Positions 256 through 10,089 of a stretch of DNA of 51,920 nt are shown piece after piece. Each line of letters begins with the position of its first letter. Position 1 is the first letter of the stretch. The position numbers and the translations under genes were made by a program. The DNA comes from Spirochaetales bacterium (lineage in GTDB: Bacteria > Spirochaetota > Spirochaetia > Sphaerochaetales > Sphaerochaetaceae). The stretch is from positions 1-51,920 of the forward strand of contig JAHDQJ010000021.1 in the NCBI GenBank assembly GCA_018433865.1, written 5' to 3'. The notes below the pieces were generated by a model, which saw only the letters and a program-made list of their open reading frames with translations, made no database searches and was not told the origin of the DNA.

Positions 256-1527
256 ATGGCCAAACCTGCTGTGCAAGAGCGTAAGGAGCGAACCGTGGAG
301 CAAGTCTCTGCGCAGCGGATAGCGTCCCTCGATGACGAGCCTCCGCTTAAACGGAAGGGTGTGGAAGAATCTCTCGCCACACCCCGGACCTCAAGATCCG
401 GAATCCCCGGATCCTCCCTGTTCAGAAAGCAATTTTTTCCGAACACGTCTTCGACCCAATGGAATGATTGGCATTGGCAGCTTTTCCATAGGATCACGAC
501 CGGCGAACAACTGCTGCGGTTCTTGGAACCCACGGAATCTGAGCATCAGGCGCTCCAGCGATCCGACTGGCAGTTCCCGTTCTCCGTGACTCCCTATTAC
601 TTGAGTCTGATCAACTTGCAGGATCCGGAAGATCCGCTGCGCAAGACGGTCATCCCCCATATCGCAGAGAGCATCGTCTCCGATGGCGAGGCGCTCGACC
701 CGTTGGGAGAGGATCACACGAGCCCCGTTCCGGGTATCGTGCACCGCTATCCCGACAGGGCACTGTTCTTGGCAACCAGTTTCTGTTCTGTCTATTGCCG
801 GTATTGTACCCGCTCGCGCTTGGTCGGAGGCCATACCGAGGCGTTGGAGGAACACTGGGATCGTGCACTCGACTATCTGGCAAGCCACACGGAGATCCGC
901 GATGTCATCATCAGCGGTGGTGATCCGCTCACCCTCTCCGACGAGCGGCTGGAGAAACTGCTTGCACGGTTTCGACAGATGAAGCACATCCAGATGCTCA
1001 GGATCGGAACGAAGGTCCCCTTCGTCCTCCCGCAACGGGTTACACCTGCATTGGTGAAGGTCCTCAAGAGCTATCGCCCCCTGTATATCAATATCCATGC
1101 GACACACCCCCATGAGTTGAGTGAGGAGGGAAGGCAAGCTTGCAATCGGCTCTCTGACGCGGGGATCGTTCTCGGCAGCCAGACCGTGCTGCTCAAGGGC
1201 GTGAACGATTCGGTTGAGGTGATGACTGATCTTTTCCACTCGTTGCTCAAGGTTCGAGTCCGCCCGTACTATCTGTTCCAGTGCGACCCCATCGTGGGTT
1301 CGGCCCACTTCAGGACCACCATCGAGGATGGGAAGGCCATCATGGACGGATTGCGGGGCCACACGAGCGGCCTGGCGATTCCCTACTACGTCGTCGATAC
1401 CCCGGGAGGCGGTGGCAAGGTCCCCGTATTGCCCGATTACGAGGTATCCCACGATGCGAAGGGATTCTGCCTGCGCAACTACGAGGGGAAACGATTCATG
1501 TATCCCGATGCGAAACCGGAGGCTTGA
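256..1527 (+). CDS. kamA: Lysine 2,3-aminomutase-like radical SAM enzyme (KamA family)
   Basis: The 423-residue product is a PLP- and SAM-dependent aminomutase of the KamA family, expected to convert an alpha-amino acid (lysine, or possibly glutamate) to its beta isomer. The radical SAM cluster is C177, C181 and C184 (CSVYCRYC). The C-terminal PGGGGK, with K388 as the likely PLP lysine, matches the family, as does the WNDWHWQLFHRI start of the conserved region near residue 70. Length fits lysine 2,3-aminomutase better than the shorter EpmB. The first 55 residues are polar and not conserved-looking. The start at 256 is chosen because the promoter -10 lies at 211-216. The stop is one base before the next start, so this is the first gene of a four-gene operon with two ATP-grasp ligases and an acetyltransferase. 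Substrate is inferred, not shown. Confidence 0.88.
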   Translation: MAKPAVQERKERTVEQVSAQRIASLDDEPPLKRKGVEESLATPRTSRSGIPGSSLFRKQFFPNTSSTQWNDWHWQLFHRITTGEQLLRFLEPTESEHQALQRSDWQFPFSVTPYYLSLINLQDPEDPLRKTVIPHIAESIVSDGEALDPLGEDHTSPVPGIVHRYPDRALFLATSFCSVYCRYCTRSRLVGGHTEALEEHWDRALDYLASHTEIRDVIISGGDPLTLSDERLEKLLARFRQMKHIQMLRIGTKVPFVLPQRVTPALVKVLKSYRPLYINIHATHPHELSEEGRQACNRLSDAGIVLGSQTVLLKGVNDSVEVMTDLFHSLLKVRVRPYYLFQCDPIVGSAHFRTTIEDGKAIMDGLRGHTSGLAIPYYVVDTPGGGGKVPVLPDYEVSHDAKGFCLRNYEGKRFMYPDAKPEA

Positions 1528-1528
1528 G

Positions 1529-2536
1529 ATGGTGGTGGGACTGACCTACGACCTCAAGCAACGGTACCTGGAGGATGGGTATGCACCTGAGGATGTTGCC
1601 GAGCTCGACAGCCCGGAGACCATCGATGCGATCGATGCATCCTTGCGTTCCCTCGGTTACGAAACCGAACGGATTGGCAACGTCAAGGATCTCGTGAGTG
1701 CCCTCGCCAGTGGAAAGCGGTGGCCAGTGGTGTTCAACATCGCCGAGGGGTTGCACGGTCTGTGCCGAGAGGCACAGATCCCTGCGCTGCTCGATGCCTA
1801 CCGCATACCCTATGTGTTCTCCGACTCGCTCACGATGGTGGTGACGCTCCATAAGGGCTTGGCCAAATCAGTGGTGCGAGAGTACGGAGTACCCACTGCT
1901 GACTACCGTGTGGTCGAACGGATCGAGGATCTGGTTCGTGTCCATTTGCCGTTCCCGCTCTTCATCAAGCCAGTCGGAGGGGGGACGGGTATGGGCATCG
2001 ATGCCCATTCCATCGTTCATGAGCCGACTTGCCTTCAGCAGGGGGTCGAACGACTGTTGTCGTTGCATCGACAGCCGGTGTTGGTGGAAACATACCTCAG
2101 TGGTCGGGAATTCACCGTGGGGATCGTAGGAACAGGAGAGCATTCCCGTGTAGTGGGGATGATGGAGATCGTCGTCGATACGAAGAGCGATCATGGCGTC
2201 TACTCCTATGCATCCAAACAACAGTACCTGGAATGTACGACCTACCATCGTGTAGAGGGCGCCGATGCGGTGCAGTGTGCCGAGGTGGCTCTCGGGGCAT
2301 GGCGGGCGCTCGGGTGCAGGGATGGGGGACGGGTGGACCTGAAGATGGATGGCCGGGGGAAGGTCCACTTCTTGGAAGTGAATCCGATGGCCGGCCTGCA
2401 TCCCGTCGATTCCGATCTTCCGATCCTCTCGAGGATGGAGGGTATCGATTATGAGCACTTGATCGGTATGATCATGGACTCTGCGATTTCCCGGTTGGAC
2501 AGCGATGGTGAACAGAGAGATACTGCTATTGCATGA
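1529..2536 (+). CDS. ATP-grasp ligase, D-Ala-D-Ala ligase-like (first of two)
   Basis: The 335-residue product has the D-alanine-D-alanine ligase type of ATP-grasp fold. It shows the ATP lysine in FIKPVGGGTGMG (K147), the adenine-region segment VETYLSGREF (188-195) and the metal ligands D270, E283 and N285 (FLEVNPMAGLHP). The family joins a carboxylate to an amine through an acyl phosphate. The ATG at 1529 has GGAGG at 1518-1522 and follows the aminomutase stop by one base. The longer frame that starts inside the aminomutase gene is not needed. It is followed by a second, clearly different ATP-grasp gene overlapping by 32 bases. The operon context argues against peptidoglycan synthesis and for ligation of the aminomutase product, but the substrates are unknown. 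Confidence 0.8.
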   Translation: MVVGLTYDLKQRYLEDGYAPEDVAELDSPETIDAIDASLRSLGYETERIGNVKDLVSALASGKRWPVVFNIAEGLHGLCREAQIPALLDAYRIPYVFSDSLTMVVTLHKGLAKSVVREYGVPTADYRVVERIEDLVRVHLPFPLFIKPVGGGTGMGIDAHSIVHEPTCLQQGVERLLSLHRQPVLVETYLSGREFTVGIVGTGEHSRVVGMMEIVVDTKSDHGVYSYASKQQYLECTTYHRVEGADAVQCAEVALGAWRALGCRDGGRVDLKMDGRGKVHFLEVNPMAGLHPVDSDLPILSRMEGIDYEHLIGMIMDSAISRLDSDGEQRDTAIA

Positions 2537-3488
2537 TGCGGTCATCGAGGGAGCTCCCCCCGATGAACAGGATACCTTGGTACAGGTTTCTCAGATCGGG
2601 TCGGCATTGCGCCGACTCGGTTGTGCTGTCCGTACATTGGCTTTCGATGGTGACCTCTCAGCCTTGGAAGCAAATCTGCGCAAGAAGCCGACAGACTTGC
2701 TGTTCAACGTGGTGGAGACCTTCCATGGCTCCCGTTTCCTTCACACCATCCCGCTCCTTTGCGCGCAACTTGGCATCCCTGTCACGGGAGGCAATGCCTC
2801 CAGTCTGTTCCTTACGGGAGACAAGCTATTGGCAAAACGGCTGATGGTGCTGAAAGGTATCCCGACACCCAGATGGGTCGAGGACCGGGACAGCGATGCG
2901 TGGCCTTCGTTCCTTGGCAAGACTTTGATTTGCAAACCGAGGGAGGAGGAAGCTTCGGTCGGCATCACCGACGAGTCGGTGTTCACCTGTAACACGTCGG
3001 ATGAGCTTCGGATGCGATACGACGACGCTGTTCGCGGGAAGATGATCCTGGAGGAGTATATCGAAGGAAGGGAATGCAATATCTCGGTAGCTTCCTCCGG
3101 CAAGGCGGTGCATGTCTTCCCGATAGCGGAGATGGTGTTCACCGACTACCCGGAGGGGAAGCCCCGGATCGTAGGGTATGAGGCGAAATGGGACGAACAC
3201 TCGTTCGCATATCACCATACGGTCAGATCTTTCGCATTCGCTCAGCGGGAGCCGGCGCTTGCCCGTAGATTGGAAGAGTTGGCCGTCTCATGCTGGCACC
3301 TGTTCGATTGCACCGGATACGGTCGGGTCGACCTGCGCATCGATAGTGCGGGCACGCCGTTCGTCCTGGAAATCAACATGAACCCATGCCTGACCGATGA
3401 CAGCGGTTTCATCGCGGCATGTGCGCAGGCATCGATGAGCTATGATGAGGTGATTCGCATGATAATCGAGGAGGCTCTCCGTGGATGA
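2505..3488 (+). CDS. ATP-grasp ligase, D-Ala-D-Ala ligase-like (second of two)
   Basis: This 327-residue protein is a second D-Ala-D-Ala-ligase-like ATP-grasp enzyme. Visible landmarks are the nucleotide-binding lysine K144 (LICKPREEEASVG), EEYIEGRE at 183-190, D276 in GYGRVDLRID, and the metal ligands E289, N291 and N293 (LEINMNP). It differs from its upstream neighbour, lacking the glycine-rich GGGTGMG and having EEEASVG instead, so it is probably not a simple recent duplicate and may use another substrate. The start overlaps the preceding gene by 32 bases and has no strong ribosome site, suggesting translational coupling. A GTG three bases on is an alternative start. Its stop overlaps the acetyltransferase start by 8 bases. 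Confidence 0.78.
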   Translation: MVNREILLLHDAVIEGAPPDEQDTLVQVSQIGSALRRLGCAVRTLAFDGDLSALEANLRKKPTDLLFNVVETFHGSRFLHTIPLLCAQLGIPVTGGNASSLFLTGDKLLAKRLMVLKGIPTPRWVEDRDSDAWPSFLGKTLICKPREEEASVGITDESVFTCNTSDELRMRYDDAVRGKMILEEYIEGRECNISVASSGKAVHVFPIAEMVFTDYPEGKPRIVGYEAKWDEHSFAYHHTVRSFAFAQREPALARRLEELAVSCWHLFDCTGYGRVDLRIDSAGTPFVLEINMNPCLTDDSGFIAACAQASMSYDEVIRMIIEEALRG

Positions 3489-3969
3489 CCTGAAATTCCG
3501 GGAAGAACCGTGTGCCGAGGATGTCGGCCGGGTTGCCCGTCTGCTTTCCCGTACCCGTTTCTTCACTGCAGAGGAGGAGGAAATCGGTGCATCCCTGGTG
3601 ACGGAGCGACTTCGTGAAGGAGCCCGTTGGGGGTACCTGTTCCTTTTTGCCGAATCGCAAGACACTTTCGTCGGATACACCTGCTATGGTCCGATTCCCG
3701 GGACCCTCGACGGCTACGATCTGTACTGGATAGCTGTGGACCCGGATAGCCAGCGGGGAGGCTTCGGCCGTCAGTTGCTCGCTGCCACGGAGAGGAAGGT
3801 CCTGGAGCTCGGTGGGAAGCGGTTGTATGCCGAAACTTCGTCGACAGCCCAATACCAACCGACCCGTTCATTCTATGAACGCAATGGTTTCTTCCTTGAA
3901 GGCCGGCTTGCAGACTACTATGCACCTGCCGATGACAAGATGCTCTATACAAAGATATTGGTCAGATGA
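3481..3969 (+). CDS. GNAT family N-acetyltransferase
   Basis: The 162-residue product is a GNAT acetyltransferase that should transfer an acyl group from acyl-CoA to an amine. The acetyl-CoA-binding motif A is visible as VDPDSQRGGFGRQLL around residues 88-102, and a typical C-terminal YERNGFF follows. The start is GTG at 3481 with GAGGAGG at 3467-3473. It overlaps the upstream ATP-grasp gene by 8 bases and is last in the operon. By analogy with the known AblA/AblB pair (aminomutase plus beta-lysine acetyltransferase making N-epsilon-acetyl-beta-lysine) it could cap the operon product. It is not closely recognisable as AblB. The 3' end overlaps the convergent MATE gene by 8 bases. Confidence 0.8.
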   Translation: MDDLKFREEPCAEDVGRVARLLSRTRFFTAEEEEIGASLVTERLREGARWGYLFLFAESQDTFVGYTCYGPIPGTLDGYDLYWIAVDPDSQRGGFGRQLLAATERKVLELGGKRLYAETSSTAQYQPTRSFYERNGFFLEGRLADYYAPADDKMLYTKILVR

Positions 3970-5332
3970 CCTTCTTGGACTTCCATGAGTTCCCAAGGAA
4001 CCGGATCACGAAACAGCTTGACCGGCAGATCCAATCGATGTACATCGCGAACCAGATGCCGTGCAATCCCATGCCCAGCCAACTGCCGAGGATGTAGGAG
4101 AGCCCGACCCGGAACGTCCACATGCTGACGATGGAGACGGTCATGGTGAACCGAACATCGCCTGCAGCCCGCAGGACCTGAGGCAACGTGAAGGCAAGCG
4201 GCCACATCAGCGCGTTCATGACGAAGAGGATTTTCAACACTGAAACAGCGAGTGTCGCTGATGCCGCGCTGAGGTTGAACATGCCTACCAGCTGTTCAGT
4301 CAGCACGAAGAGCACGGTCGCGAGGATGGCGAGCGTGCCATAGGCGATGCGCATCAGTTTCCTGGCATAGCGGTTGGCCTGCTCGGTCTCCCCGGCGCCC
4401 ATGCACTGTCCCACCACCGTGATCGTAGCCATGCCGATCGCTCCGCCCGGGATGTTCGTGATCGAGGCAAGGGTATTGGCGATGGCATTGGCCGCTATCG
4501 CAGCGGTGCCGAATGAGGCGGTCAAGGTCTGTACCAAGATCTTCCCGATATGGAAGATGCCGCTTTCGATGCTGTTCGGAACTCCGATGCGAAGTATCCT
4601 CTTGATCATCGTCCAATCGAGATTGAATCGCCGTATCCGTTCGATGCGGACCACCGTATCCTTGCGTACCAGGAGCACCTGCATGATCGTGGCTGAGAGA
4701 ATTCGTGCGAGCAACGTGGCCAGTCCCGCTCCGAACACCCCCCACTGGAACCCATAGATGAACAGTGCATTGCCGAGGATGTTCGTGATGGTCATGATCA
4801 GTGAGACACGCATGGAGATACGGCTGTTTCCCATGGCTCTGAAGATCGCTGCACCGGAATTGAACAGTCCGAGGAACGGGTAGGAGAGGGCCGTGAGGGT
4901 AAAATAGGTCTGTGCTTGCCCCATGATGGAACTGTCGAGGTTCCCGTAAAGGAGAGCGAGTATCTCATGGTTGAAGAAGAGGAAGGTTCCCATGAACAGA
5001 AGGGCGACGAAGGTGGTCGTGTAGATCAACTGTTTGGCCGCCTCTCCTGCCTTCTCGGGTGTCCGTTGGCCGATATATTGGGCGACGACCACTGCTCCGC
5101 CTGCAGCGAGCGCAGAGAAGAGGAAGAGGAACAGGTGATTGATGGAATCGACGAGCGAGACGCCCGCTACCGCTGCCTCCCCGACGCTCGAGATCATGAT
5201 CGTATCGGCAAGTCCTACCGATACATCCAGTACCCGTTCGATCACGAGCGGGATGATCAGTGCGGCGAGCTGCCGGTTGGTAAAGAGTGCGTTACCTGAA
5301 GAGGGCGGGCTTGCGAGGGACAATGGTGTCAT
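3962..5332 (-). CDS. MATE family multidrug/metabolite efflux protein
   Basis: The 456-residue membrane protein has about twelve hydrophobic segments in two similar halves, with the MATE signatures LIIPLVIERVLD near the N terminus, VGLADTIMISSVGEAAVAGVS and later AANAIANTLASI. The family exchanges cationic compounds for Na+ or H+ across the inner membrane. ATG 5332 is preferred because it puts the usual short tail before the first helix and has AAGGA just upstream, though unusually close. A GTG at 5434 would add 34 polar residues, including three Cys/His-rich positions, and cannot be excluded. It faces the aminomutase operon with an 8-base tail overlap, so export of that operon's product is possible but unproven. 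Confidence 0.85.
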   Translation of the reverse strand: MTPLSLASPPSSGNALFTNRQLAALIIPLVIERVLDVSVGLADTIMISSVGEAAVAGVSLVDSINHLFLFLFSALAAGGAVVVAQYIGQRTPEKAGEAAKQLIYTTTFVALLFMGTFLFFNHEILALLYGNLDSSIMGQAQTYFTLTALSYPFLGLFNSGAAIFRAMGNSRISMRVSLIMTITNILGNALFIYGFQWGVFGAGLATLLARILSATIMQVLLVRKDTVVRIERIRRFNLDWTMIKRILRIGVPNSIESGIFHIGKILVQTLTASFGTAAIAANAIANTLASITNIPGGAIGMATITVVGQCMGAGETEQANRYARKLMRIAYGTLAILATVLFVLTEQLVGMFNLSAASATLAVSVLKILFVMNALMWPLAFTLPQVLRAAGDVRFTMTVSIVSMWTFRVGLSYILGSWLGMGLHGIWFAMYIDWICRSSCFVIRFLGNSWKSKKVI

Positions 5333-5371
5333 TCCTTGTATCGGATCTCCGCTTGGGAGCGAAGCTGTGAT

Positions 5372-5390
5372 GGCACAGTGTGCCTTTTTT
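5372..5390 (+). terminator. Hairpin plus T-run on the plus strand
   Basis: GGCAC-AGT-GTGCC (5372-5384) is followed directly by six T residues, the form of an intrinsic terminator reading rightward. No rightward gene ends nearby; it lies just upstream of the leftward MATE start. It may block antisense or read-through transcription towards tRNA-Arg, or act in the leftward transcript as a leader hairpin. Confidence 0.4.
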
Positions 5391-5616
5391 CCCCGACAAT
5401 GACAAGCATCATGGCCCATGGAGTGATTGTTCACAGCATACCCTAGCTATCACAGGGAAAGAGTTTTTGGCAAAACTGCGAACAATCACGAGCGTAACAC
5501 AGCGACCGGTGGTTTCCATCGTTGATCCATGGTCTCAAGACACTTTTGGACGGTCCGGACAGTCGCCTGCATGCACGGATAACGACGAGAGGAGGTTCGA
5601 CTGTGGAGGGAACTAG

Positions 5617-5690
<74 letters not shown>

Positions 5691-8194: not shown

Positions 8195-9211
8195 TCACGC
8201 CCTCGGACGTTTGCTTCCCTGTCTGTCCCGATTTGTCCTGGACAGTCTTGTCCTGGTCAGCGGGGTCATCTGACGTGCGGCCACTGAGGATGGAGTGCCA
8301 GTAGGCTTCTTTGGTCCGGAGAGGTGGTCCACCGCCTCCCGGGCAATCGGGGTGAAGCCTTCGCCGAGGACCTTGTATGCCTCCTGCACGATCATGAAGG
8401 CTTTGGGGTCGGTCTCGTGGACCAGTACGGTGAGCCGTGATATCTGTTGGTTGGGGATCACGGCCATCAGCATCCGGCGCTCCTGCCCGGTGTAGATTCC
8501 CGTTCCCTGGAAGATCGTGCCCCCGTGGCGAAGCTCATCGATCACCAGTTGCTTGATCACTTCCAGCCTGTCGCTGAAGATGAAGACCGTCTTTGCATAC
8601 TTGGTACCCATCACCATGATCATGTAGTTGACCATCTGACTGGAGATGTACACGGTGATGATCGCGAACATCGCCCGCTCGATACCGAAGATGAATGCGC
8701 TGGTCATGATGATCAGTGCGTCCACGAGGAGGATCGAGGTGCCGAGCGGCAGCGGCGTGTACCTGCTGACAATCTGCGCCACGATATCGGTGCCGCCCGT
8801 GTTCGCACCGCCTTTCATGACCAACCCGATGCCTGCGCCGAGGAACAGTCCTCCGAAGAGCGCCGAGAGCATCACGTCGATCGAGTCGGTGTAGGGCATG
8901 ATTCCCTCGTACCCGACAATCCTTCCTACGACGGAGACGGCGAGCGAGAGCAGCACCATGCCCAACAGCGATTTCATACCGTAGGCAGGACCGAATATCC
9001 TGAGTCCTGCGATGAAGAGGGGTACATTCATGCACAGCATCGAGAGCCCGGGCTCGAAGCCGAAGGTATGGTAGAGGATCGTCGCGATACCGTTCACGCC
9101 CCCGCTTGCGATCTTCGCAGGCATGGTGAATGCCGCGATCGCGAAACCGGCCATCGCGGAGCCTATCGCGATGAAAAGGAATTCCTGGACTCTCCTGCGC
9201 GCTGTCGTCAT
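8195..9211 (-). CDS. YitT family membrane protein (second of a tandem pair)
   Basis: The 338-residue protein belongs to the YitT family: an N-terminal membrane domain of about five or six helices (DUF161) with GGVNGIATILYH, the conserved GANTGGTDIVAQI, and a C-terminal soluble DUF2179 domain with GTGIYTGQERRMLM. The function of the family is not established. ATG 9211 with GAGGA upstream is preferred over the TTG at 9217. The gene follows its paralogue by two bases, so the two are co-transcribed. It carries an extra polar, basic C-terminal tail of about 50 residues that the paralogue lacks. Confidence 0.85.
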   Translation of the reverse strand: MTTARRRVQEFLFIAIGSAMAGFAIAAFTMPAKIASGGVNGIATILYHTFGFEPGLSMLCMNVPLFIAGLRIFGPAYGMKSLLGMVLLSLAVSVVGRIVGYEGIMPYTDSIDVMLSALFGGLFLGAGIGLVMKGGANTGGTDIVAQIVSRYTPLPLGTSILLVDALIIMTSAFIFGIERAMFAIITVYISSQMVNYMIMVMGTKYAKTVFIFSDRLEVIKQLVIDELRHGGTIFQGTGIYTGQERRMLMAVIPNQQISRLTVLVHETDPKAFMIVQEAYKVLGEGFTPIAREAVDHLSGPKKPTGTPSSVAARQMTPLTRTRLSRTNRDRQGSKRPRA

Positions 9212-9213
9212 GA

Positions 9214-10089
9214 TCAATCCTCGCTCATGGGACTGAAGCCCTCTCCAAGCACCTCGAAAGCTTCTTCGATGATCATGAAGGCTCGTGGATCCGCCTCCTT
9301 CACGATGGCGTTCAACCGGGAGATCTTCTGGTTCGGGATGACTGTCATCAGGACCGGTCTGTCCATCTTCGAGTAGATTCCTTTCCCCGCAAGCAAGGTC
9401 CCCCCGTGCCCCAGTTCCTCTAGGATCCGCTTTGCGATCACCTCATGCCTGTCACTGATGATCAAGGCAGTCTTCGCATAGCGGGTCCCCATCCGGAGCA
9501 TCACGAAGTTGATCGAGGTACTCGTCACATAGAGGGTGATGCTGGCGAAGAGGGCACTCTCGAGCCCGAAGGCGAATCCTCCCGCGACGATGACCAGGCC
9601 GTCGACGAGAAAGAGGGAAGTCCCCACGGAGAGTGGCGTGTACTTGCTGACGATCTGCGCTGCAATGTCGGTACCGCCTGTGTTGGCACCTCCCTTGAGG
9701 ACCAATCCTGTCCCGAAGCCGCTGAGGAATCCCCCGAACAGCGCCGAGAGCAGGATATTGATCGAATCGGAGTAGTCGAGGAACCCCTCGAATCCGAAGA
9801 TCAGTCCGAACAGGGTGGTGAAGAGGCTGAGCAGCAGCGTCCCCACCAGGCTTATGATGCCATATGAGGTTCCGAATATCCTGATGCCTGCGATGAACAG
9901 GGGAAGGCTGAGAAGGAATATCGAGATGCCGACCTCGAAATCCACCAAGTGATAGAGGATGACCGCGATGCCGCTGACCCCGCCGCCGGCAAGCTTCGCG
10001 GGGGTGATGAACGCCGCGATGCCGATCGCCGTGATCACGGAACCGAGGACGATGAGTACATAATCGCCGATTCTTCGGGTGTGTTTCAT
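9214..10089 (-). CDS. YitT family membrane protein (first of a tandem pair)
   Basis: This 291-residue protein has the same plan as its downstream neighbour: membrane DUF161 half with GGGVSGIAVILYH and GGANTGGTDIAAQIVSKYTPL, then a DUF2179 half with GKGIYSKMDRPVLM. The pair is an evident tandem duplication with divergence, and may form a heteromer. There is no Shine-Dalgarno sequence; instead a -10 element TATACT ends only nine bases before the ATG, so the transcript would have almost no leader. Family function is unknown; a transport or sensing role is often assumed. Confidence 0.85.
   Translation of the reverse strand: MKHTRRIGDYVLIVLGSVITAIGIAAFITPAKLAGGGVSGIAVILYHLVDFEVGISIFLLSLPLFIAGIRIFGTSYGIISLVGTLLLSLFTTLFGLIFGFEGFLDYSDSINILLSALFGGFLSGFGTGLVLKGGANTGGTDIAAQIVSKYTPLSVGTSLFLVDGLVIVAGGFAFGLESALFASITLYVTSTSINFVMLRMGTRYAKTALIISDRHEVIAKRILEELGHGGTLLAGKGIYSKMDRPVLMTVIPNQKISRLNAIVKEADPRAFMIIEEAFEVLGEGFSPMSED

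Follow-up and report, generated by a model that had tools for sequence, protein, structure and literature searches.

A spirochaete gene block that joins a KamA-type aminomutase to Ddl-like ATP-grasp ligases and an acetyltransferase, and its possible beta-lysine peptide product

What might a cell make with an operon in which a KamA-type aminomutase is followed by two ATP-grasp ligases and a GNAT acetyltransferase? In the window (the whole 51,920-nucleotide stretch that was analysed), these genes form the four-gene block kam-lig1-lig2-gnat, with all members on the plus strand. The window, contig C41, comes from a nearly complete genome (2.9 Mb, 55 contigs) whose closest relatives are Sphaerochaetaceae-like spirochaetes. 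An earlier reading made from the sequence only had placed four genes at 256-3969, and its frames, starts and spacings were exact (gaps of +1 base for kam/lig1, -32 for lig1/lig2, and -8 for lig2/gnat). The features are as follows:

256..1527, plus strand: kam, ATG start, 423 aa; lysine 2,3-aminomutase-like radical SAM/PLP enzyme of the KamA family (TIGR00238)
1529..2536, plus strand: lig1, ATG start, 335 aa; Ddl-like ATP-grasp ligase (PF07478, 5.2e-26)
2505..3488, plus strand: lig2, ATG start, 327 aa; second Ddl-like ATP-grasp ligase (PF07478, 3.6e-21)
3481..3969, plus strand: gnat, GTG start, 162 aa; GNAT N-acetyltransferase with a QRGGFG acetyl-CoA motif (PF00583, 2.1e-13)
3962..5434, minus strand: MATE-family transporter (TIGR00797, over cut-off), convergent neighbour and doubtful member of the block

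All four block genes have a codon-position GC typical for coding DNA, a Shine-Dalgarno-like GGAGG lies upstream of lig1, and the MATE gene overlaps the gnat stop by 8 bases. The contig holds just 255 bases 5' of kam, so that the upstream region is seen in part; no Rfam riboswitch was detected in seven block-bearing loci.

Among 393 spirochaete genomes, the kam clade (at least 487 bits) was found in 33, lig1 (at least 348 bits) in 35 and both in 31, with the limits placed where the score lists show a visible break; the associated Fisher p of 2.8e-39 overstates the association because related genomes are not independent, and the spread over families carries more weight. By our own count, about 22 of the 35 genomes with lig1 have all four genes together, across eight families. 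The gene order is altered in one of these full blocks, lig1 and lig2 are fused to a single 681-693 aa protein in two (L072, L081), and the locus is cut by contig ends in several of the remaining lig1 genomes. A scan of species genomes for the aminomutase returned eight full-length relatives, seven with the four genes in identical order and an eighth (L021) with gnat cut off at the contig end; the two genome sets overlap, as L015 and L054 are apparently one record. Because the order recurs in eight spirochaete families, the grouping is not due to chance, and the four-gene block is real and ancient. The sequence-only reading, which had named rare co-occurrence as the observation that would speak against its operon, is strongly borne out on this point.

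Where the block is split, its parts are usually still in the genome: kam-lig2-gnat lies on one contig and lig1 on a different one in G020 and G053, kam-lig1 is separate from lig2-gnat in G201, and G092 keeps lig1-lig2-gnat with kam elsewhere. The parts therefore persist together though unlinked, with lig2 keeping company with gnat. Partial sets comprising kam-lig2-gnat (L168, L169, L170), lig2-gnat (L178), or a third ligase with a second acetyltransferase (lig3-gnat2; L087, L175, L176) also indicate that the parts travel as sets. The kam-clade gene of G092 (L173, G092:C21:23946-25070) contains one in-frame TAG and is either a pseudogene or an assembly error.

Kam exceeds the cut-off of the KamA model TIGR00238 (336.9 bits against 199.2), and its nearest PDB match is the lysine 2,3-aminomutase (LAM) 2a5h (E 3e-122). 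The CxxxCxxC motif and the PLP lysine are both present, in agreement with the earlier assignment of a KamA-type enzyme with intact radical SAM and PLP residues. The protein scores under the cut-offs of the AblA lysine 2,3-aminomutase model (TIGR03820; 435.9 bits against 525.4) and of the glutamate and arginine 2,3-aminomutase models (418.9 against 650 for TIGR04368; 368.4 against 600 for TIGR04468). The equivalents of Cys125/129/132 (CxxxCxxC), Arg134, Asp293, Asp330 and Lys337 (PLP) are kept in 32 of 32 kam-clade members. We take Asp293 and Asp330 of LAM to be the residues that bind the side-chain amine of lysine, and Lys337 to be the PLP lysine; the position of Asp330 holds Thr in an annotated arginine aminomutase (L152) and Cys in a rhizobial KamA (L108). 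Lysine is thus the likely substrate of Kam because the LAM active site, including both Asp residues, is intact throughout the clade, though the AblA cut-off is not reached. The window's genome also has a 717-residue KamA-like open frame (L087:1183-3333) with CxxxCxxC and no Pfam match at E 0.001.

The two ligases were correctly described beforehand as non-identical and Ddl-like: both match PF07478, and they share 26% identity and fall into separate clades in the tree. Lig1, which is the best conserved of the system's ligases, forms a clade of 43 rows with an SH support of 99. AlphaFold models of both proteins (pLDDT 93 each) have the Ddl fold, with Foldseek E values of 2e-24 and 3e-23 against Ddl structures, and the structure search of these models gave nothing more than that fold. 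Both also retain the Ddl catalytic set (equivalents of Lys97, Lys144, Glu180, Glu187, Lys215, Arg255, Asp257, Glu270 and Asn272), from which amide-ligase chemistry is inferred. Unlike the Ddl family, with which they share this fold and these catalytic Lys, Arg, Asp, Glu and Asn residues, the ligases score under the Ddl cut-offs, for Lig1 under every one among the matches listed (110.5 against 245.65 for TIGR01205 and 94.4 against 262 for NF002528; 88.1 and 69.7, respectively, for Lig2), and the genome holds a separate true Ddl on C38 (287.8 against 262 for NF002528) with the canonical Tyr216.

The pockets differ from Ddl at the Tyr216, Ser150 and Leu282 positions. Tyr216 is never Tyr, being Gln, Glu or other in lig1 and Trp in all lig2 and lig3; the EGSSVG (Ser150) loop is mostly of the GTG type in lig1 and of the EAS/HAS/DAS type in lig2 and lig3; and the Ser281-Leu282 pair is Ser-Asp/Glu in 43 of 43 lig1 rows. 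In the window, lig1 has a GGTG loop, Lys-Gln and Ser-Asp, and lig2 has an EAS loop, Lys-Trp and Ser-Gly, with a Lys-Trp omega loop and EN.NPC as lig2 motifs. The acidic lig1 pocket may accommodate an amine, for instance that of beta-lysine. Family annotation would call these proteins D-Ala-D-Ala ligases, yet they form clades of their own, whose members accompany a lysine aminomutase.

On balance, we think that the product of the operon is a di- or tripeptide that contains beta-lysine and is N-acetylated, a proposal that draws on gene content and on active-site residues read from alignments. The LAM-type site, the non-Ddl ligase pockets, the separate Ddl and the lack of AblB together point to a beta-lysine amide or peptide rather than to D-Ala-D-Ala or to plain N-epsilon-acetyl-beta-lysine. 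Kam, judging from its intact LAM active site, would convert L-lysine to beta-lysine (3,6-diaminohexanoate). Lig1 and Lig2 (and Lig3 where present) would each use ATP to convert the carboxylate of an amino acid to an acyl phosphate, which is then coupled to an amine so that amide bonds of beta-lysine form, and Gnat would place an acetyl group on a free amine, most likely the side-chain amine of beta-lysine or the N-terminus. The sequence-only reading had likewise preferred a beta-amino-acid peptide or amide to plain N-epsilon-acetyl-beta-lysine; the active sites, the separate Ddl and the missing AblB speak for that preference, and the product itself is something we infer.

The fate of such a product bears on an alternative in which the operon makes a secreted, antibiotic-like bioactive peptide or amide with the MATE protein as its exporter. 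Aminomutase and ATP-grasp genes do occur together in a blasticidin-type cluster and a Thioflavicoccus plasmid cluster, and the convergent MATE gene is found in the window and its close relatives. It adjoins the block only there (the window, L014/L054, L016 and L057), however, and most families lack a MATE gene beside the block; we therefore rejected MATE as a dedicated exporter and general part of the system, and the export suggested in the sequence-only reading finds little support. Moreover, no conserved transporter, resistance gene or regulator was found across the block neighbourhoods, and a block held by many families of one phylum looks closer to core physiology than a patchy secondary-metabolite cluster, so we consider secretion unlikely. 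Since the block is spread across the phylum with no transporter or resistance gene conserved beside it, a role in internal physiology is favoured, and the beta-lysine peptide would most likely be kept intracellular, where it could plausibly act as a compatible solute in the manner of N-epsilon-acetyl-beta-lysine or of N-acetylglutaminylglutamine amide (NAGGN). A solute role is plausible because the established compatible solutes include beta-amino acids and acetylated dipeptides, with the NAGGN dipeptide described (PMC1224877), and because one set of close relatives has an MscS gene near the block. This is the weakest step of the proposal, argued largely by analogy, and we put it forward as a tentative possibility.

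We consider it quite unlikely that the product is plain N-epsilon-acetyl-beta-lysine, although the block resembles the AblA-AblB pair, a known osmolyte pathway (PMC1224877), in that a lysine 2,3-aminomutase-type enzyme neighbours a GNAT acetyltransferase. Here, kam lies under the AblA cut-off, the set includes two or three Ddl-like ligases, and gnat is not AblB: neither gnat, whose GNAT membership agrees with the earlier call (PF00583), nor any other protein of the genome matched the AblB model TIGR03827, with positive controls that included Methanosarcina acetivorans and Bacillus subtilis. In addition, lig1 is present in 31 of 33 kam-clade genomes, lig2 stays with gnat even in split blocks, and lig1-lig2 fusions occur inside kam operons. 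The nearest solved relative of gnat is 2r7h (E 2.6e-40, almost full length), a protein from Desulfobacterota titled 'putative D-alanine N-acetyltransferase'; its D-alanine function is putative, and the depositor's title may reflect Ddl-like neighbours. The NAGGN pathway follows a similar acetylated-dipeptide logic of acetyltransferase plus ATP-grasp, and its genes encode a GNAT/ATP-grasp synthetase and an asparagine-synthase-type amidotransferase. It differs in having no aminomutase, and the operon's proteins are separate and non-fused; the NAGGN-type GNAT model was not among the gnat matches, and no asparagine-synthase-type amidotransferase was seen among the neighbourhoods examined.

A role of the ligases in peptidoglycan, by adding beta-lysine to precursor peptides or cross-bridges or by making D-Ala-D-X, would fit their Ddl fold and family, and some ATP-grasp ligases are known to attach cross-bridge residues. 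We regard it as very improbable, given that the genome's own Ddl passes the cut-off that lig1 and lig2 fail, that their pockets are not those of Ddl, that no mur genes were seen within the block, and that an acetyltransferase and, in relatives, a deacetylase are a poor fit.

The relatives contain further genes, and the earlier description of a four-gene system, while right about the block, missed a third ligase and a second acetyltransferase as well as deacetylase and SET-domain additions. In seven loci (L017, L018, L019, L020, L053, L055 and L056), a second GNAT gene (gnat2) follows gnat and is itself followed by a convergent third ligase (lig3), which forms its own clade within the lig2 group (support 99). 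The lig3-gnat2 pair lies on a separate contig in G327, G260 and the window's genome, where the two genes are mutually convergent (L087:11905-13614, G000:C1). A protein of about 590 residues, with a histone-deacetylase-like C-terminal domain and an N-terminal part that is weakly GNAT in two of three examined, is encoded between the ligases and gnat in five f46/f54 genomes (L068, L072, L075, L077 and L078), and a deacetylase-like protein of about 590 residues sits before lig1 in G349; the window's own genome has none. Such a GNAT-deacetylase fusion could undo the Gnat acetylation in some relatives. In G427, a genome found by way of the phylum of G393, a single run comprises lig1, a gene of the lig2 type, a SET-domain gene, lig3 and a gnat; a SET gene is recorded at L111. 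At L089:6332-9482, one protein combines a distant Ddl-like ligase with an S58 peptidase, from a family that includes beta-aminopeptidases, and its gene is followed by an HDAC-like gene; this fusion bears only indirectly on the operon, its ligase being more distant. The GNAT-HDAC fusion, the SET gene and the S58 fusion are side genes of kinds that act elsewhere on lysine-like amines or beta-peptides, and we count them towards the beta-lysine peptide. That Kam and the ligases instead modify a protein, by EF-P beta-lysylation-like or RimK-style amino-acid addition, might be suggested by the relatedness of EpmB to KamA and by the SET-domain and deacetylase genes of some relatives, but is the most improbable reading, as kam fails the EpmB cut-off (TIGR03821; 274.3 against 369.3), the block has no EpmA-type enzymes, and one side chain would not need two or three separate ligases.

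Beyond spirochaetes, the genome survey covered a 249-genome sample of the phylum of G393 (Bacillota), in which 34 genomes have a lig1-like protein. At eight Bacillota loci (L112, L113, L122, L126, L127, L128, L130 and L151), kam adjoins a lig1-like gene without lig2 or gnat, and part of the chemistry may therefore be simpler. In the Thioflavicoccus plasmid cluster, KamA adjoins a lig2-like ligase and diaminopropionate genes, and the aminomutases of the blasticidin-type cluster and of a Sinorhizobium plasmid are paired with L-amino-acid-ligase-type ATP-grasp proteins; the plasmid searches returned nothing nearer than distant relatives of lig1 and gnat. The blasticidin-type cluster (the arginine 2,3-aminomutase BlsG plus an ATP-dependent carboxylate-amine ligase) also places an aminomutase near an ATP-grasp amide ligase, which fits a feed of beta-amino acid, but it differs in the loss of the second Asp, the type of ligase and the nucleoside antibiotic context. 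These pairs show that the combination of an aminomutase with an ATP-grasp amide ligase recurs, and this operon is a new, larger version of it: the logic of aminomutase, ATP-grasp and acetyltransferase is known, and the set with two or three Ddl-like ligases is new.

In the excerpted literature on aminomutases with ATP-grasp or Ddl proteins, no description of this gene set was found; the excerpts of one paper mention Sphaerochaeta under ammonia stress without these genes (PMC10785759), and those of another hold, of relevance, AblA/AblB only (PMC12776343). The aminomutase and Ddl annotations thus mask an apparently undescribed pathway. If the proposal is true, it would bring a new beta-amino-acid metabolite, new substrate specificities of the Ddl fold and, perhaps, a new osmolyte of anaerobic spirochaetes. 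A wider and more doubtful conjecture is a new class of intracellular beta-peptides of beta-lysine and other residues, assembled by a dedicated set of two or three ligases of Ddl descent and subject to reversible acetylation, which might serve as compatible solute or reserve in many spirochaetes and occur in a simpler form in Bacillota.

Several further observations concern the surroundings and distant relatives of these genes. Just past the MATE gene, the window has a tRNA-Arg (anticodon CCG; 5616-5690, minus strand), and a tRNA gene of equal score is present in L054 and L057. Two neighbouring YitT/DUF2179 membrane proteins at 8195-10089 of the window are likely tandem duplicates. On the Sinorhizobium plasmid, the KamA gene with Cys at LAM Asp330 lies beside the gene of the L-amino-acid-ligase-type ATP-grasp protein (L108:5974-8433). 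Finally, eight spirochaete genomes (L132-L139) encode a Ddl-like ATP-grasp ligase whose N-terminus carries a long extension; this ligase forms a separate clade (support 100) and in three scanned members contains a methyltransferase domain.
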